A stretch of DNA of 64,000 nt from Tenericutes bacterium HGW-Tenericutes-2 (GTDB lineage Bacteria > Bacillota_I > Bacilli_A > Acholeplasmatales > Acholeplasmataceae). Positions 2,152 through 12,051 of this stretch are shown here, in pieces (position 1 is the first letter of the stretch; each line of letters begins with the position of its first letter). The translations under genes and the position numbers were made by a program. The notes beneath the pieces were generated by a model that was not told where the DNA came from, searched no databases, and saw nothing but the letters and a program-made list of their open reading frames with translations. The stretch lies in contig PGXL01000001.1 in the NCBI GenBank assembly GCA_002839095.1, positions 62,001-126,000 on the forward strand, given 5' to 3'.

Positions 2152-2199
2152 TTATACTAATATATGATAAATCATATAAATGAGAAAAAGAGGTACTAT

Positions 2200-4437
2200 A
2201 TGAAATTAAGAAAACTCGTATTACTGCTTGCCTTTATACTTTTACTCGTTTCTTGTACACCTAAAGAATCAGAAAAAGGTTCTTTTAAGGTTTCATTTGA
2301 AGTGGCTGGGGGGTCATTGGTCACTGAGCAAACAATTGTTGATGGCGAAAAAGCTGTAGAACCTGATAACCCAACAAGACTTACATATATCTTTGATGGT
2401 TGGTATACAGATTTAAACTATACTACATTATTTGATTTTGACACTCCAATTACTGCAAGCATAAGACTTTATGCGAAATGGAGCCCTGATGTTGAGTTAC
2501 AAATCGCATATTTGGATGCAGATGCTGCTGCAATTCAATTTTCTACGACACCAATAACTCAATCTAAGCTGAATCTACCGATTAAAGGTTCAGTTAATGA
2601 TTCAGGGATTACTTGGACTTCAAGCAATACTGCAGTTGTTAATCGTCATGGGGTTATTTTTCATCCAACAATGGGTGAAAATGATGTAACTGTTACGTTG
2701 ACTGCAAAGCTTACCTATGGTTTGCAACAAAAATTTTATGATTTCGAAGTAGTTATTCCAGCTAAAACTGAAGTAACTATGGATGAATCTGTTGAGCTTC
2801 CTTTTACAAACTTAACTTCAGAATTTAGCGTAGCTGATGCAAATCTTACAACTTACTTTGCTGAAGATGGTGCTCTACCCTATGTGGATTTCATGGAATT
2901 TCTATCAATACTTGAAGGATTCTTATATTTTGATGACTTCGAGTTCTCAATCAATGGTGATATCGTAACCATTTATTACCAAGCTGAGTACGATATCAAG
3001 GATGGTCAGGGTAACGTCATCGGAACAGAAACTGAAGATTATTATTTGACTATCGATTTTGAAGATAACACAGTCACAGTGGATACATTAAGCTTCTTTG
3101 AAGGCTATATCTATGATACTGCTACTGATTATGGTGCTGGTATCACTTATTTAGATACTTACTATGAGGAAGGAATTCCAGTAACAATGGAATTTACACC
3201 TTATCGCTTTGATTTAGTTGTTCATCAGGATGGATTAGAGACTAAATATTTATTCCCATTCCATATAGCTAACTTATTATTTACTGGTGGTTCATATTAT
3301 AATGTTTACTACAATGGAAATGGTTATTCTGGCATTTATGCATTCCCAGATACTGATGATCCAACAGGAGAAACTGAGGATGGCAGAGCGTATAACTCTA
3401 TCAAGATTAGTTCACTCAATGGCACTGATGTAGCACCAGACGTATTGGTTGCAACCTATGACATGTTTGTTTTTACCCTAGATTACTTCTTCGGTTTAAA
3501 ATCACAACGTGGTGTTGAGACTTATTATAACGTCTTATCCAGTACCAGAGACTCTTATATGACCGGTAAAACAAGAGACTTATCGAATGGAATCTTTAAT
3601 GTGGTCAATAAAACATTAGATGATCTACATTCAAGTTATCACTTCCCTGGCTATTATGAGGTTCCTACGTTTAAGTTGACCCTTCAAACAGTTGCCCAAG
3701 TTGGACCAACTGTAAGAAGCTGGTATGATGTTTTATTCACGGTACAAGACTTGTTCAATACAACCTATCAACAGACCTCTGGAACACCACCAGATTATCG
3801 TTTTATTGATAACAATAAGACAGCCATTATTTTCCTAGACGGATTCTATACTGCGACAGTTGAAGATCCTGATGGAAATGATTCACACCGCTTTATGAGA
3901 GAAACAATGGATGCGATTATGCTAGAAAATAGAAATGTAGAAAATATCGTTGTCGACTTAAGCTATAATACAGGCGGTAATTTAGGTGCATTAATTAGAG
4001 TCTTAGGATTTATGACTGAACAGCCTATTGAGATGAGCTACATGAATCCAACAGATAAATCCAATGTAACTTATTTTGCAGATGTCGATACAGTAGCCTA
4101 TACAGATGTTAACTGGTTCTTTATTACATCTCGCGTTACATTCTCAGCAGCAAACCTAATGACTTCAATTGGTCAACATATGGGATTTGCTACCATTATT
4201 GGTACGAAATCAGGTGGTGGTGCTTCATCAATCATTCCAGTTGTTTTACCTGATGGAACATTCTTCCATATGAGTAGCTTAAACGTTTTAAGCTATCGTG
4301 TTGGTAATGAAGTGGATGGCTACGAATACTTCTCCATCGAAGATGGAATCACTCCAGATTATATTCTACCTGTAGCTGATACACAAAACCCAGCTAAAAT
4401 TATTGAAGTTATCAATCAGGCTAAATCTGGTAATTAA
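2200..4437 (+). CDS. Surface lipoprotein with InlB-type repeat and S41 peptidase domain
   Basis: A 745-residue predicted lipoprotein. Signal peptide with lipobox LVSC (Cys18), then an InlB/Listeria-Bacteroides-type repeat (about residues 27-94: GG, VxxGE, FDGWYTD, LYAKW), an Ig-like stretch to about 190, a long unassigned middle, and a C-terminal peptidase S41 (C-terminal processing protease-like) domain from about 540. VVDLSYNTGG, Ser649 in TFSAAN and Lys670 in GTKSGG fit the Ser/Lys dyad of the family. No PDZ domain is apparent. The upstream in-frame ATG at 2164 is rejected because AAGAGG precedes the ATG at 2200 and the signal peptide starts there. Monocistronic, flanked by its own promoter and a terminator. 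Likely an exported protease; the substrate is unknown. Confidence 0.8.
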   Translation: MKLRKLVLLLAFILLLVSCTPKESEKGSFKVSFEVAGGSLVTEQTIVDGEKAVEPDNPTRLTYIFDGWYTDLNYTTLFDFDTPITASIRLYAKWSPDVELQIAYLDADAAAIQFSTTPITQSKLNLPIKGSVNDSGITWTSSNTAVVNRHGVIFHPTMGENDVTVTLTAKLTYGLQQKFYDFEVVIPAKTEVTMDESVELPFTNLTSEFSVADANLTTYFAEDGALPYVDFMEFLSILEGFLYFDDFEFSINGDIVTIYYQAEYDIKDGQGNVIGTETEDYYLTIDFEDNTVTVDTLSFFEGYIYDTATDYGAGITYLDTYYEEGIPVTMEFTPYRFDLVVHQDGLETKYLFPFHIANLLFTGGSYYNVYYNGNGYSGIYAFPDTDDPTGETEDGRAYNSIKISSLNGTDVAPDVLVATYDMFVFTLDYFFGLKSQRGVETYYNVLSSTRDSYMTGKTRDLSNGIFNVVNKTLDDLHSSYHFPGYYEVPTFKLTLQTVAQVGPTVRSWYDVLFTVQDLFNTTYQQTSGTPPDYRFIDNNKTAIIFLDGFYTATVEDPDGNDSHRFMRETMDAIMLENRNVENIVVDLSYNTGGNLGALIRVLGFMTEQPIEMSYMNPTDKSNVTYFADVDTVAYTDVNWFFITSRVTFSAANLMTSIGQHMGFATIIGTKSGGGASSIIPVVLPDGTFFHMSSLNVLSYRVGNEVDGYEYFSIEDGITPDYILPVADTQNPAKIIEVINQAKSGN

Positions 4438-4685: not shown

Positions 4686-6224
4686 CTACTTCATATCTTT
4701 TGTTTTTTCGTAGAAGTGACAAGCTACATAGTGTCCCTTTGAAATTTCACGATAATCTGGAACAACCTTAGCACACTTCTCAACTGCAAGTGGACAACGT
4801 GTTCTAAACTTACATCCTGAAGGTGGGAAGATGTTCGATGGAATATCTCCTTCAAGTAGGATGCGTTCTTGCTTAATTTCATCAGTTGTTGGAATTGCTG
4901 ATAATAATGCCTTAGTGTATGGATGTAGAGGATTTGCATAGATTTCATCAGATGGCCCAAGTTCAACCATGTTTCCTAAATACATAACCCCAATTCTATC
5001 ACTAATATGCTTAATAACAGAAAGGTCATGTGAGATGAATAAATATGTTAAATCTTCTTGATCCTTCAACTCAACAAGTAAGTTGATAATCTGAGACTGA
5101 ATAGACACGTCAAGTGCAGATACAGCTTCATCACAAACCACGAATTCAGGCTTTAGAGCTAATGCTCTAGCGATACCAATACGCTGTCTTTGTCCACCAG
5201 AAAACTGATGAGGGAAACGGTGTAGCATGTATGCATCAAGTCCGCATTTTGCCATTGTCTCCAAAACATACGTTTCTAATTCTTTAGAACCCTTTGGATA
5301 CATACCATGTTCAACAACAGCTTCACCAATAATTTGGCCAACAGTCATTCTTGAATCAAGTGATGAGTAAGGATCCTGGAAAATAATTTGTAGCTTTCTT
5401 CTAAGTTGTCTCATTTCTTCTTGATCCAAACGGGATAGGTTAATACCTGTTTCACGGTTTTTCTCAAGCTTATCTTGATACTTAGAATCTAATGTACGTT
5501 CAGTAATTGGTAAAGTTTTTTTACCCTTAAATCCACGAATAACATCAAATATTTTCTTAACTTCAGCTGAGAATTTAGCATCTTCCTTACCTTCTAAGCC
5601 AGCAAAAATAACGCTGTTATGTCCGTGTAATTCAGTAGCCTTCAATAGTAATTCGCTGATTTCTTCAATATTTTCTTCAAGAATTAAAGATCCAACAGTT
5701 CTAGATGCTTCTCTTAGCTGACGTGATGCTTCTTTCTTTTGTTCTCTTGAATGATGTTGAAGTGATTCTAGCTTAGCAACCTTTTGGTCATAAGATTTGT
5801 CAACCATTTCCTTGCTCTTTTCAATTTGAGAAAGTTCTTCTTTTAATTGAATGACTTCAAGGTCATATTTTTCACTTCTCTTATAGCATTCGATTGCACG
5901 ATGCTGATATTTTGGTAATTTTTTGATTTCACTTACAATGTACTGCAGGTCCATATCTTCTAATCTAGAACCAAAGTATACAGCACTTCCACTTGTAGGT
6001 GGATAAAGCTGAAGAATAATACGACCTAGTGTTGACTTACCGCAACCTGATTCACCTACAAGACCAAAAGTTTCGCCTTTATAGATTTCAAGTGATATAT
6101 CTTCAACAGCACGTACATAAATTTGTTTCTTATTAAAAAATGTATTACGCTTTAGAGGAAAGAATTTTTTAAGCTTTCTAATCTCTAATAGTTTTTCTTT
6201 TTTACTATAGCTATTCTTTGCCAT
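4686..6224 (-). CDS. oppF: Oligopeptide ABC transporter ATPase OppF with helical insertion
   Basis: 512-residue ATPase of the opp importer. Walker A GESGCGKS (residues 57-64), Q-loop FQDPYSSL (about 282), signature FSGGQRQR, Walker B VVCDEAVSALD, H-loop ISHDL, and the C-terminal oligopeptide/dipeptide domain with Cys residues (GCKFRTRCPLA..KC). Walker A and Q-loop are normally about 45-60 residues apart; here about 170 extra residues (roughly 91-261) are inserted, rich in K, E, Q and L with coiled-coil character. The ORF opens at 6266, but the ATG at 6224, 14 bases inside the end of oppD, gives the usual N-terminus. Energises peptide import together with OppD. Confidence 0.9.
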   Translation of the reverse strand: MAKNSYSKKEKLLEIRKLKKFFPLKRNTFFNKKQIYVRAVEDISLEIYKGETFGLVGESGCGKSTLGRIILQLYPPTSGSAVYFGSRLEDMDLQYIVSEIKKLPKYQHRAIECYKRSEKYDLEVIQLKEELSQIEKSKEMVDKSYDQKVAKLESLQHHSREQKKEASRQLREASRTVGSLILEENIEEISELLLKATELHGHNSVIFAGLEGKEDAKFSAEVKKIFDVIRGFKGKKTLPITERTLDSKYQDKLEKNRETGINLSRLDQEEMRQLRRKLQIIFQDPYSSLDSRMTVGQIIGEAVVEHGMYPKGSKELETYVLETMAKCGLDAYMLHRFPHQFSGGQRQRIGIARALALKPEFVVCDEAVSALDVSIQSQIINLLVELKDQEDLTYLFISHDLSVIKHISDRIGVMYLGNMVELGPSDEIYANPLHPYTKALLSAIPTTDEIKQERILLEGDIPSNIFPPSGCKFRTRCPLAVEKCAKVVPDYREISKGHYVACHFYEKTKDMK

Positions 6225-7218
6225 TGCTGCGCACCCCACTTTCTGGATAGAAACAACGGATAGCATGGTTTTCTTCCACTTGAATTAATTCTGGCTCTTC
6301 TACCTTGCACTTATCCGTTGCATATTTACAACGTGGAGCAAATTTACAACCAACTGGTAAATCCAGTGGATGTGGAACTGAACCAGGAATAACTTCTAGT
6401 TTCTTTCCTTTTTCATCAGATAGTCTTGGAATAGAATTCATTAATCCTTCTGTATAAGGATGTGAGTATTTAGCCTTTCCAGAGAAAACCATTTTTGCTG
6501 ATGCATTTTCAACGACTTGTCCAGAGTACATAACAGCAACATCGTCAGCCATTTCATTGATAACTCCAAGGTCATGAGTAACGAAGATAATAGAAGTTCC
6601 TAATTCAGTCTTTAGATCATTCATTAGCTTTAAAATCTGAGCTTGAATGGTCACATCAAGAGCTGTTGTAGGTTCATCTGCAATTAATAATTTAGGACGA
6701 CAAGCAAGCGCCATTGCAATCATCACACGTTGACTCATACCACCTGATAGCTGGAATGAATACGCATTAGCTATCTTATCTGGGTTAGAAATACCAACCG
6801 ATTTAAGTAGTTGCACTGTTCTTTCATGAGCTTGTTTTTTATCTAAATTTTGATGTAGCATTAATACTTCACTAATTTGTCTTGTAACAGTTAAAACAGG
6901 GTTTAAACTGGTCATTGGTTCCTGGAAAATGACTGATATTTCATTTCCGCGGATTTTTCTCATATCTGCATTATCTAATTCAGATATTTTTTCACCATCA
7001 AACCAAATTTCACCTTCATGAATCTTTTGATTGTGTTCAAAAAGCTTTAGAATACTCATCGCTGTTACGCTCTTACCACTACCAGATTCACCAACAATAC
7101 CAAGTGTTTTACCGTTTTTTACGGATAATGATACACCGTTGACTGCTTTAATTAAACCTCTTTTTGTGGCAAAATAGGTATGTAAATTTCTAATTTCTAA
7201 TAAGTTTCCTTTTTCCAT
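6211..7218 (-). CDS. oppD: Oligopeptide ABC transporter ATPase OppD
   Basis: 335-residue ATPase pairing with OppF. Walker A GESGSGKS, Q-loop FQEPMTSLNP, signature LSGGMSQR, Walker B LLIADEPTTALD, H-loop VTHDLG, and the C-terminal oligopeptide-transporter domain with the Cys cluster GCKFAPRCKYATDKC. Unlike OppF, it has normal length and no insertion. Two ATGs are possible; AGGAGG at 7225-7230 is 6 bases from the ATG at 7218 and only one base from the ATG at 7224, so 7218 is chosen. The gene is preceded by oppC after an 11-base gap and overlaps oppF. Confidence 0.95.
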   Translation of the reverse strand: MEKGNLLEIRNLHTYFATKRGLIKAVNGVSLSVKNGKTLGIVGESGSGKSVTAMSILKLFEHNQKIHEGEIWFDGEKISELDNADMRKIRGNEISVIFQEPMTSLNPVLTVTRQISEVLMLHQNLDKKQAHERTVQLLKSVGISNPDKIANAYSFQLSGGMSQRVMIAMALACRPKLLIADEPTTALDVTIQAQILKLMNDLKTELGTSIIFVTHDLGVINEMADDVAVMYSGQVVENASAKMVFSGKAKYSHPYTEGLMNSIPRLSDEKGKKLEVIPGSVPHPLDLPVGCKFAPRCKYATDKCKVEEPELIQVEENHAIRCFYPESGVRSNGKE

Positions 7219-7229
7219 GTTCATACCTC

Positions 7230-9101
7230 CTATCGTTCTGCATTCTTAGGATCCATTGCATCACGCAATGCATCACCAACTAAGTTTATACTTAACGCAG
7301 CAATGATAATCGCTAAGCCTGGTAAAATCCAACGCCACCAATAAATTCTAATTACGTTAACATCCTGTGCAGCAGTCAAAATATTACCCCATGATGGACT
7401 TGGTTTTTGTACACCGAATCCTAAGAAGGATAATCCTGCTTCTGTAAGAAGCGAGCCTGCATATCCAAGAGTAGCGTTAACGATAACAATACTGATAACA
7501 GCTGGGAAAATGTGTCTCCAAATAATATGTTTTTGTTTAATACCTAAAGCCTTCGCTGCTAATACATAATCTCTTTCTCTTTCAGAAAGGATTTGACCAC
7601 GGATCAATCTTGCTAGACCAGTCCAGGAGAGAACCCCTAGAATAACCATGATCATTAACATACGTTGAACTTCAGTTGTAGCACCACCAAGAAGTAATGC
7701 TGATAATGTGATTGCGAATGGAAGGAACGGGAATGAAGATACAATTTCAGCAAATCTCATGAGTAAATTATCGATTCTTCCGCCGAAATAACCAGCAGTT
7801 AATCCAACAGTTACACCGATAACAAGTGAAATTAATACTGCAACTGCACCAACTGTCAAGGTAATCTTACCGCCATGAATTAACTGAACGATAAAATCTC
7901 TTCCTTGCTCATCAGTACCTAACATATATCCCTTTAATCCAAATGTAGTAACACTACCATCTTCATGAACAATAAAGTTTTGATGTGTGTCAATAAATAT
8001 TTCTCTAATATTAGATAAATTGCTTGGTACATCTGTCTGACCTAATTGATTATCTCCCCAAGCATAAACTTCACCATCATTTGTTAATACAGCGACATGG
8101 TCATAACCAACTCCAAGTTGCTTAACATTTGTTTTTGCTGCATCTGGAATATATTGGTCATGAAGACCAAAACTAGTAGCTCCCCAAACATATAGATTAC
8201 CATTTGTATCGACTGCAAAGGCGTTATAAATAGTTAATCCGATTTGAGCAACTTGAACGGATCCATTTCGTAAAGCAGGTGGTAAAGTAGCTACAACATC
8301 ACTACTAACACCAATTAAACGAACTGTTCCATCCTCAAGAAGCACAAGTGCATTGTTAAAGTTAGAAACAACATCTACTGCTTTAATAACAGTCACTTCA
8401 TCTTCTTCGTAAAAATAGTATGGTGCACGGTTCATAACGTCACCAACATTATTTGCTCCAACGCCCCAAATATAGACAGCGCCAGATTCAGTAATTGCTA
8501 AAGTACGTTCAATACCACCCTTAATATAGGTAATAGGGTCCGCTTGAAAGTTCGCTACGAAACGATCGTGTATTTGTGCTTGAAATTGGTGATTGTAACC
8601 CCAAAGATAGATTTCACCTTGATCATCTACAGCAATCATATGCTGTGAACCAGCTGAAACGTCAACTATATTTTTAGTTTTAACTACTGCTGGAACATCT
8701 AATATACCACGATATTTTGCACCCCAAACAAAAACGTTACCATCTTCTGATAAACCAATTGAGTTTGCATTACCTGATTCAATTTCAATGATACCTTCTT
8801 TAATTAATTGTCTTGGTACGTTTAAATATTGATAATTAGGAGGTAAATTACGATGAAACGTATTTGTATAATATAAATTCAATGGAACAAATAGTGATAA
8901 ACCAAATGAAAATATGAAAATTGAAATAAATCCTATAATACCAATAACCGCTAGTTTATTTTTAATAAATCTTCTAGCGATCACTTTCCCTGGGGAAAGC
9001 AAAGCTTCTTCTTTGTAAACATCGATTGGTCCTTTATTAGGAAGAAATAGTCTTTTGAATAAATCGACGATTGACTTTAGTATTCTTTTAAGTGTTGTCA
9101 T
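7230..9101 (-). CDS. oppC: Oligopeptide ABC permease OppC with inserted RCC1-like seven-blade propeller
   Basis: 623 residues, about twice the usual OppC. Residues 1-75: cytoplasmic N-terminus and first membrane segment. Residues 80-97 (NLPPNYQYLNVP) and 389-402 (LKGYMLGTDEQGRDF) are the two halves of the normal first outer loop. Between them, about 105-388, lie seven repeats of 37-51 residues, each ending in a G-x-V/I-Y-x-WG-like strand: FVWG 124-127, YLWG 165-168, YIWG 210-213, RLIG 261-264, YVWG 304-307, YAWG 346-349, TTFG 385-388. This is the RCC1/BLIP-II beta-propeller pattern. Residues 410-623 form the standard permease core with five further membrane segments and the EAA loop (LAAKALGIKQKHIIWRHIFP). 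The reading frame is intact, so this is a domain insertion and not a broken fusion. Confidence 0.92.
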   Translation of the reverse strand: MTTLKRILKSIVDLFKRLFLPNKGPIDVYKEEALLSPGKVIARRFIKNKLAVIGIIGFISIFIFSFGLSLFVPLNLYYTNTFHRNLPPNYQYLNVPRQLIKEGIIEIESGNANSIGLSEDGNVFVWGAKYRGILDVPAVVKTKNIVDVSAGSQHMIAVDDQGEIYLWGYNHQFQAQIHDRFVANFQADPITYIKGGIERTLAITESGAVYIWGVGANNVGDVMNRAPYYFYEEDEVTVIKAVDVVSNFNNALVLLEDGTVRLIGVSSDVVATLPPALRNGSVQVAQIGLTIYNAFAVDTNGNLYVWGATSFGLHDQYIPDAAKTNVKQLGVGYDHVAVLTNDGEVYAWGDNQLGQTDVPSNLSNIREIFIDTHQNFIVHEDGSVTTFGLKGYMLGTDEQGRDFIVQLIHGGKITLTVGAVAVLISLVIGVTVGLTAGYFGGRIDNLLMRFAEIVSSFPFLPFAITLSALLLGGATTEVQRMLMIMVILGVLSWTGLARLIRGQILSERERDYVLAAKALGIKQKHIIWRHIFPAVISIVIVNATLGYAGSLLTEAGLSFLGFGVQKPSPSWGNILTAAQDVNVIRIYWWRWILPGLAIIIAALSINLVGDALRDAMDPKNAER

Positions 9102-9112
9102 GATTTATCCTC

Positions 9113-10087
9113 CTATTCCAACTTAACGCGTGGATCGACTAATGCATAGCTAACATCCATTACGATATTTGCAACTAGTGCCAACACTGCGTAAAACATA
9201 TTTAATACTAGAACCAAGTTATAGTCATTTACACGTAGTGAACGAATAAGTACAGTTCCGATTCCGTTCCATACAAATATTTGTTCTGTAATAGCTGATC
9301 CACCGAATAATCCTACGATTGAAAAAGATAGGATTGTAACAACAGGGATTAACGCATTACGGAAAGCATGTGAATAAATAACAACCTTTTCTCTAAGACC
9401 TTTTGATCTAGCTGTACGAATATAGTCTTTGCTTAATGCTTCTAGCATGGATCCACGAACATATCGAATCGTACCAGCAAGTGCACCAAGAGTAAGGGTA
9501 GCAACTGGTAATACTAAATGCTGTAGAAATTTGCCATAATAAGCTGGACTACCTGGATTTTCATATGGCATACCACCAGATGGTAACCAACCCAAGTTAA
9601 GAGCAAATATGAAAATCAATGTTAATCCAATGAAAAATGTAGGCATCGATATACCAACTAGTGAGAAGATCTGCCATCCACGATCGTGTAATGAGTCCTT
9701 CTTGACTGCTGATTTAATACCCACTGGAATTGAAATTAAGAAAGCTAAAGAAATTGAGAATATATTAATAATAATACTGTTACGAAGTGGTTCTTTTAAC
9801 ACCTCGTTAACACTGAGTTGATAATTCGAGGAATAACCGAAATCTCCTGTAATCATATTACCCATCCATACAAAGTATTGGATGAATATTGGTTTATCAA
9901 GTCCTAGCTTAACCTTAGCAGCTTCATATAGTTCTGCATAGACGGCAGGATCTTGAATCGACCCAGGTGGAATCATGTAACGAACAGGATCTCCTGGCAT
10001 CAATTTCATTATGGTAAATAGCATAATTGAAATGATGATGACTACTGGTAATAGAGAAAGCAGTCTTCTTAGTAAAAACTTGAGCAT
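9113..10087 (-). CDS. oppB: Oligopeptide ABC transporter permease OppB
   Basis: 324-residue inner-membrane permease of the DppB/OppB family, with first membrane segment at residues 7-28 (LLRRLLSLLPVVIIISIMLF), the family motif MPGDPV after it, five more hydrophobic segments, and the EAA loop (YIRTARSKGLREKVVIYSHAFRN) that docks on OppD/F. It has normal length, with no insertion such as its partner OppC carries. A GGAGG sits just upstream of the ATG. It is second in the operon, separated from oppA by a hairpin. Confidence 0.95.
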   Translation of the reverse strand: MLKFLLRRLLSLLPVVIIISIMLFTIMKLMPGDPVRYMIPPGSIQDPAVYAELYEAAKVKLGLDKPIFIQYFVWMGNMITGDFGYSSNYQLSVNEVLKEPLRNSIIINIFSISLAFLISIPVGIKSAVKKDSLHDRGWQIFSLVGISMPTFFIGLTLIFIFALNLGWLPSGGMPYENPGSPAYYGKFLQHLVLPVATLTLGALAGTIRYVRGSMLEALSKDYIRTARSKGLREKVVIYSHAFRNALIPVVTILSFSIVGLFGGSAITEQIFVWNGIGTVLIRSLRVNDYNLVLVLNMFYAVLALVANIVMDVSYALVDPRVKLE

Positions 10088-10176: not shown

Positions 10177-12051
10177 TTATCCTTCGAAATACATGTCGTT
10201 AATTTGTGCTGCCCAGTTCCAGAATGGAGTAGTTTCAACACCCTTTAACTTAGCATCAAATACATCATAATATTGGTTAGAATATAGAGGTACGTTTGGA
10301 ATTAACTTGTTCCAACGAAGTTGATATTCTCTCCATAATGCTAGATAAGCAGTAGTGTTACCTGGTTCTACAGTACGTAGAGCAGTTGTTAACTCATCAA
10401 GAGTCTTTTCACCAGTTGCTAATGGAGCAGCAGGATTAGTTGGAGAATCTTCTAATTGGTGAGCATTTTGCCATGTTCCTAGCCAATCTGAATGCCATGA
10501 ATAGTATGGGTCATATGCTACTGAGAAGTTAGTTGCTAAGTTGAAGATATGATACTTCTTGTCAGCAAGATCTAATTCATATGAATAGTAGTAATGATCA
10601 AGTAGAGTAGCGAAGTCACCGATAGTGATATCATACTTAATACCAGCAAGTTGCATGTTGATTTCAAACTTAGCTTGTAGTGAAGTTGTTACTTCATTAT
10701 TTTCAGTACCGAAATGTCTGATTTCTAGTACTTCACCAGCTGCGTTATGACGGAAGTAATTGCTTCCTGCAGTTGCTAATGCTGGGTTAAATGGAGTTGT
10801 ACCATTGGATTCAAACTTGTAAGCTGATTGATCAAGAGCAGCGTTAGCTTGAGTTACTGAGAATGCATACTTGTTAATGTTTGCATCGACCCAATCTTCT
10901 GATTGAACATACATCCATTGTGCAAGACCGTATTCTGAGTATACGATTGAACCATAACCATCAAGAACTACGTCTGTAACATATTGACGATCAGTTAGAT
11001 AAGCAATAGCTTGGCGCACTTTATAATCCATAGTTGGACCAAAATGAGCTTCCATAGCTAATAAACCATAACCGTTACGTGAATAATATTGAGTAGCTGT
11101 AGATGCAGCAGCTTGAGCAGCTTGAATCTTAGAACCTTCAATAACACCAGTAACTAGATCGATTTCGCCAGAGATAACTAGGTCAACGTCTAATGTTTGG
11201 TTAACGCGCTTGATAATAATGTTTTGGATTGTTGGAGTCTTACCAGCATAGTTACCCTTGAAGTTGTCATTCTTAACTAATGTAACAACTTGGTTTACGA
11301 AGCTTACAAATTTGTAAGGTCCAGAAGTAACAGTTGGAGCATAACGATATCCACCAATCTTAGCAACGTCTGCTAATAAAGCAAAGTTACCAGCACCAAC
11401 TTTAGCGCCATCAGCGTTAGAGTCGATTGTAGCACCAGCAGGAGCTAATACATGCATTGGCATTGGGCCGAATGATGCATAAAGTGTTTCGTAGTAATAA
11501 GGAAGCTTAGCACCAGAGATAGTAACTGAGAAGCTATAGTCTCCAAGAAGCTTGACGCCCTTAAATCTTACATCAGCTGAAGTTGTTCCAGCACGATAGT
11601 CTGCATAACCAACTAATGAGTCACCAGCTGAAGATGATGCACCAGCAGATACCCATTCTTTTGAAGCTGACATTAGAATAGCAAATACGTAATCGTTAGC
11701 CTTGATTGGCTGATCATCAGACCATAATAGATCTTCATGAAGTACGAACGTATATGTCTTGTCGCCAGTTACTGTATCAACTGCTGTAGCTACTGTCTTA
11801 ACAACTGTTTCGTTAAGAACGATTTCACCAAGTGGAGTTGTAGCGTAAGTACCATAACTAAATATAAGGTCTCTTACCCAGACATCATATGCACTGTTAC
11901 CAAAACCAGCCATGAAGTTACCACTAATTTCTGGTGAACCAACAACTAGTGTTTGTTCTTCAGTGGTCTCACCAGTCTGGCAAGCAACGAGGACAAGAAC
12001 TGTGACAAGTGCAACGACTAATGTTAATGCACTTTTTACAAATTTTTTCAT
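10177..12051 (-). CDS. oppA: Oligopeptide-binding lipoprotein OppA
   Basis: 624-residue substrate-binding lipoprotein (SBP_bac_5 type). Signal peptide MKKFVKSALTLVVALVTVLV with lipobox LVAC, mature Cys at residue 24, followed by a short acidic linker (QTGETTEEQ). Then come the family features: LHEDLLWSDDQPIKANDYVFA, SGPYKFVSF, and the KVRQAIAYLTDRQYV region. It captures peptides outside the membrane and delivers them to OppB/OppC. It is the first gene of the operon, with AGGAGG upstream and a consensus promoter plus cre site. Because OppC has an external propeller, docking of this protein may differ from the textbook complex. Confidence 0.93.
   Translation of the reverse strand: MKKFVKSALTLVVALVTVLVLVACQTGETTEEQTLVVGSPEISGNFMAGFGNSAYDVWVRDLIFSYGTYATTPLGEIVLNETVVKTVATAVDTVTGDKTYTFVLHEDLLWSDDQPIKANDYVFAILMSASKEWVSAGASSSAGDSLVGYADYRAGTTSADVRFKGVKLLGDYSFSVTISGAKLPYYYETLYASFGPMPMHVLAPAGATIDSNADGAKVGAGNFALLADVAKIGGYRYAPTVTSGPYKFVSFVNQVVTLVKNDNFKGNYAGKTPTIQNIIIKRVNQTLDVDLVISGEIDLVTGVIEGSKIQAAQAAASTATQYYSRNGYGLLAMEAHFGPTMDYKVRQAIAYLTDRQYVTDVVLDGYGSIVYSEYGLAQWMYVQSEDWVDANINKYAFSVTQANAALDQSAYKFESNGTTPFNPALATAGSNYFRHNAAGEVLEIRHFGTENNEVTTSLQAKFEINMQLAGIKYDITIGDFATLLDHYYYSYELDLADKKYHIFNLATNFSVAYDPYYSWHSDWLGTWQNAHQLEDSPTNPAAPLATGEKTLDELTTALRTVEPGNTTAYLALWREYQLRWNKLIPNVPLYSNQYYDVFDAKLKGVETTPFWNWAAQINDMYFEG

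Follow-up and report, generated by a model that had tools for sequence, protein, structure and literature searches.

The window analysed here, a stretch of 64,000 nucleotides from Tenericutes bacterium HGW-Tenericutes-2, contains a complete oppABCDF operon around oppC, with all genes on the minus strand and with Pfam matches to SBP_bac_5, OppB, and two oligo_HPY ATPases. The oppA gene (10177..12051) encodes a substrate-binding protein of the SBP_bac_5 family with a lipobox-like LVAC near the N-terminus, a signal recognized by reading the sequence. The permease partner OppB (9113..10087) matches PF19300 and PF00528 and is Opp4B-like. It is followed by oppC (7230..9101), an uninterrupted open frame of 623 codons without a stop; by oppD (6211..7224), an ATPase gene with ABC_tran and oligo_HPY domains; and by oppF (4686..6266), an ATPase gene matched by ABC_tran in two stretches, in which a long insert, also present in relatives, separates Walker A from the Q-loop. 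Adjoining the operon on the opposite strand (2164..4437, plus) is a gene for a likely secreted lipoprotein with a List-Bact repeat, an atrophied Ig domain, and an S41 peptidase domain.

The permease and its enlarged outer loop

The N-terminal OppC_N domain of OppC (PF12911; residues 36–88; 8838..8996, minus strand, as for all features below) scores 35.9 bits, and BPD_transp_1 (residues 429–619) scores 112.2 bits (E 3e-32), both above the curated Pfam cut-offs. Hydropathy gives six transmembrane segments, namely, 50–68, 413–431, 453–471, 482–500, 534–552, and 591–609. The first of these lies within OppC_N, while the permease core (residues 391–623; 7233..7931) comprises TM2–TM6 and the EAA loop, situated between TM4 and TM5. 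The best PDB match of the core is OppC/DppC (8z21, E 7e-49). All these features, as well as the GTDxxGRD segment and the oppABCDF operon, are common to OppC/DppC proteins of the Opp4C-type, type I ABC peptide importers. The protein differs from them by a propeller of approximately 290 residues between TM1 and TM2, and by its score against the NCBIfam Opp4C equivalog (318.3 bits vs. 350 needed), obtained in two stretches that are split by the insert.

In insert-free relatives, the TM1–TM2 loop reads ...APSAEHWLGTDAQGRD or ...APNFTNWFGTDKLGRD and is short, ending with ...APSAEHWLGTD or ...APNFTNWFGTD. Here, ...LPPNYQYLNVP is followed by the propeller and then by GYMLGTDEQGRD, so that the propeller is located within the corresponding stretch (...LPPNYQYLN / GYMLGTD). 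Since the relatives have a short loop at the same place, the propeller is an insertion. It falls between TM1 and TM2, and the corresponding loop of DppC is extracytoplasmic (PMC12136057); hence, the propeller is expected to be extracellular. An earlier note on this DNA had proposed a propeller inside an outer loop of the peptide permease OppC; the sequence, the predicted structure, the membrane topology, and the homologues all support this. The limits given there (residues 105–389) need a small correction: Pfam, the relatives, the alignment, and AlphaFold2 place the inserted domain at approximately residues 97–390 (7932..8813).

The inserted propeller and its joint to the permease

RCC1 repeats span approximately residues 104–399 by Pfam, with a WD40_RLD/RCC1 match at 139–399 (E 1.6e-50) and five RCC1_2 repeats (E 8e-34). 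The respective profiles, all above cut-off, score 172.9 bits (PF25390), 114.9 bits (PF13540), and 22.7 bits (PF00415). The nearest PDB sequence matches of the insert are HERC2, UVR8, and BLIP-II. When the insert was modelled alone with AlphaFold2 (mean pLDDT 81.6, pTM 0.80), it formed 21 strands in seven A-B-C triplets, from 104–127 to 365–388, i.e., a seven-blade propeller, closed as the earlier note had claimed. The blades were delimited by DSSP on the AlphaFold2 models together with the alignment, in which the blade-end glycine of blade 1 is invariant. They correspond to residues 104–127 (blade 1, 8721..8792), 145–168 (blade 2, 8598..8669), 190–213 (blade 3, 8463..8534), 241–264 (blade 4, 8310..8381), 284–307 (blade 5, 8181..8252), 326–349 (blade 6, 8055..8126), and 365–388 (blade 7, 7938..8009). 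The blade-end glycines (127, 168, 213, 264, 307, 349, and 388), the very residues at which the blades had been said to end, are invariant or nearly invariant columns in an alignment of 15 homologous inserts at 24–70% identity.

The nearest solved folds are UVR8 (Z 24.9 over 279 residues) and BLIP-II (Z 24.8 over 247 residues), with a Foldseek E of 2e-17; CRINKLY4 gave Z 22. The insert has in common with RCC1/BLIP-II propellers (BLIP-II, 3qi0/1jtd; UVR8, 4dnu; CRINKLY4, 7a0j) seven blades, RCC1 repeats, and Z values of 22–25, and differs from them in being embedded in a loop of a membrane protein. These propellers are protein-binding folds. The predicted likeness to RCC1, the Ran guanine-nucleotide exchange factor, to BLIP-II, the binder of class A beta-lactamases, and to the light sensor UVR8 would be one of fold only. 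Among Mollicutes, the portion of a study of Hepatoplasmataceae considered here describes RCC1-repeat proteins with seven-blade RCC1-like propellers, one of them modelled with Ig-like domains, and in that portion no transporter fusion is reported (PMC10928387).

Blade 7 is connected to the permease by a fixed tether, G388-x-x-G391...GTD397 (7911..7940), in which the spacing between G388 and G391 is exactly two residues in all 23 homologues. The longest loops follow blades 2, 3, and 4 (up to 203, 124, and 255 residues, respectively), whereas those after blades 5 and 6 have 12–20 residues, so that large variation in loop length is restricted to blades 2–4. The fixed two-residue joint and this one-sided variation suggest that the propeller is a rigidly mounted domain with one side free. 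Such a pattern would be expected if blades 5–7 and 1 were packed against OppA or the transporter, leaving the far side free. The model of full-length OppC, built on a shallow alignment of seven sequences, is confident in the insert only (approximately 70–90 pLDDT over most of residues 100–388, and below 50 in the permease), and with the permease part at such low confidence the mounting geometry is putative. One homologue (L107:6857-10291) is an OppC of 1144 aa with approximately 500 more residues in the propeller loops, some of which appear to form a beta domain and others a coiled coil.

Distribution, origin, and selection

Within the genus, the fusion was found in 6 of 20 genomes: it is intact in the window's genome and in G003, G005, and G014, whereas in G004 and G019 it is either split or only partly present at a contig end. 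The three further intact copies are 80–90% identical to the window's OppC and include that of the cultured Peloplasma aerotolerans M4Ah, which is among the named records with the fusion. This mollicute from a mud volcano has no cell wall, requires yeast extract, and is missing several amino-acid pathways (PMC11122141). No fusion was detected in the order beyond the genus (6/160 genomes searched), and a recent insertion confined to the genus, apparent at that level, was overturned by the class-level search, in which 20 of 395 genomes were positive. A draw from the phylum added one more genus. It yielded no match outside the class, although the number of genomes drawn from other classes is not shown and this is weak evidence of absence; a search of viral contigs for further relatives was also negative. 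In total, the fusion occurs in 16 genera of five families, and it is both broader and older than could be seen from the window alone.

A maximum-likelihood tree built on the permease core (from residue 391 onward, insert excluded) unites all 23 fused proteins in one clade (support 97/91), joined only by a contig-edge fragment, L154, in which the insert region is missing. The closest relatives of this clade are insert-free OppC proteins of family f16. The single clade of fused proteins, with nearest relatives that have no insert, indicates one ancient gain of the propeller. The window's OppC has its nearest relative in another family, f24 (87% identity in the core), rather than within its own, so that transfer between families or differential loss followed the gain.

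We found no description of an RCC1 propeller fused to an OppC-type permease in the open-access literature. The architecture nevertheless has a place among type I ABC importers in which a permease contains an inserted extracytoplasmic domain.

Purifying selection acts on the propeller: among the four intact genus members, dN/dS is 0.07–0.19 in the propeller and 0.03–0.05 in the core. In the clade outside the genus, identity to the window's OppC is 24–53% in the propeller and 44–87% in the core. A signal of OppA-specific co-evolution by partial distance correlation, suggestive in the first run, was gone when near-duplicates were removed and more controls added. After controls, the partial mirror-tree correlation of the propeller is 0.28 with OppA, 0.28 with OppB, and 0.36 with OppF; these being about equal, the mirror-tree analysis gives no OppA-specific support.

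The TM1–TM2 loop of OppC is a site where several unrelated large domains were inserted. A second OppC lineage from other Opp operons of the order (L035–L044; approximately 620–690 aa) has in the same loop an unrelated insert of approximately 300–330 residues that begins with LPPRxPxLEKIGxxDGT and had no Pfam match in the three proteins checked. A third type (L028, L031, L050, L052) has an insert of approximately 105 residues there (...NIPPKLEIYKLDDDLYVYL...), with no Pfam match in the one protein checked.

Possible roles of the propeller

In relatives, the fused oppC is always adjoined by oppA, oppB, and oppD, and also by oppF except at L105, around which none was found. No conserved accessory gene was found beside propeller operons among ten neighbours examined. 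Because the operon genes alone recur around the well-covered homologues examined, OppA is the sole constant extracellular partner, and its retention implies that the propeller is no substitute for it. The binding protein DppA caps DppB/DppC on the outer side (PMC12136057), and OppA should cap its permeases in the same way. Taken together with the purifying selection and the strong match to a protein-binding fold, this makes the docking or orienting of OppA the most likely role of the propeller. Of the functions considered in the earlier note, i.e., fixing OppA, capturing ligands, and attachment to a surface, we favour the first, but only modestly. We consider it about an even chance that the propeller serves as a platform fixed on the outside, docking or guiding OppA by analogy with MalF-P2 and MalE.

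According to this proposal, the propeller would be exposed at the outer surface of a cell without a wall, mounted rigidly by the two residues that join blade 7 to the GTDxxGRD segment. Serving as a platform fixed next to the channel mouth, it could dock or orient the lipid-anchored OppA, and delivery might thereby become independent of free diffusion. MalF-P2 has a different fold and occupies a different loop. Like the propeller, MalF-P2 of the E. coli maltose importer is a folded extracytoplasmic domain within an importer permease, and it touches the docked binding protein MalE in MalFGK2E (PMC3150292); it belongs to a sugar importer, however, and for the propeller we only infer the contact with OppA. 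In a peptide permease, too, an extracytoplasmic element is known to engage the binding protein, namely, the scoop motif of DppB (PMC12136057); it consists of approximately 30 residues in DppB, whereas the propeller is a folded domain in OppC. Since the nearest relatives, of family f16, import without a propeller, it is dispensable for delivery in general.

Other explanations differ in how they account for the same observations. It is conceivable, though unlikely, that the propeller itself binds or selects ligands, either by catching peptides or proteins close to the channel mouth or by sensing a ligand and gating the importer. RCC1-like seven-blade domains do make receptor ectodomains (CRINKLY4), the propeller changes faster than the permease, and OppF, wherever readable in propeller operons, has a long insert that could carry a signal; on the other hand, a dedicated OppA is always retained, and OppF has a long insert at L049 and L053 as well, where OppC has no propeller. 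An extended form of this idea, in which the propeller would be an extracellular receptor within the importer, bind a ligand of its own and, together with the OppF insert inside, gate or tune peptide import, seems improbable to us; if true, it would make the system a sensor-gated ABC importer, more than an improved dock. Direct exposure on wall-less cells would equally suit a domain that anchors cells to a surface or brings another extracellular protein, e.g., a peptidase, to the importer, and both the adjoining gene for the S41-peptidase lipoprotein and the further RCC1-repeat proteins in these genomes (L001, L111) fit such a role. We regard it as rather unlikely, as a two-residue joint is ill-suited to a reaching adhesin, recurrence in 16 genera speaks against one specific surface, and the S41 gene, besides lying on the opposite strand, did not turn up among the examined neighbours of homologous operons.

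The unrelated inserts in the same loop of other OppC lineages of the order demonstrate that bulk is repeatedly tolerated there, and the propeller might accordingly have no specific partner and serve as a structural cap, stabilizing or shielding the exposed transporter on a wall-less membrane. Purifying selection and the invariance of the blade frame and tether across large distances make this doubtful. A trivial explanation, an artefact of assembly or annotation, has a negligible probability: although the window comes from a draft genome of 52 contigs, independent intact copies, including those in an isolate's genome and in G478 and G497, genomes of another family that each consist of one contig, rule out an assembly error. 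The earlier note had named a gene without the insert in other isolates as an observation that would count against the fusion, and other genomes, including that of an isolate, retain the insert; the second such observation, a predicted structure lacking a closed seven-blade propeller, was not made either.

Both the engagement of binding proteins by ABC importers and the replacement of the periplasm in wall-less cells are usually studied with binding proteins alone. A protein-binding propeller fixed once beside the channel mouth and retained in 16 genera is a natural experiment, for which the insert-free sister group provides a natural control and P. aerotolerans a cultured member.

Several other proteins of these operons and genomes are also extended. 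OppF of the window and of L094–L109, L152, and L153 has approximately 115–385 extra residues between Walker A and the Q-loop; such residues are absent from the insert-free sister operons. OppA of L104, L107, L108, and L144 has approximately 130–400 additional N-terminal residues, which in L107 and L108 look Ig-like on visual inspection. The separate RCC1-repeat protein in the window's own genome (L001–L004, G000:C28) continues into a List-Bact-like segment and is ended by the contig end.
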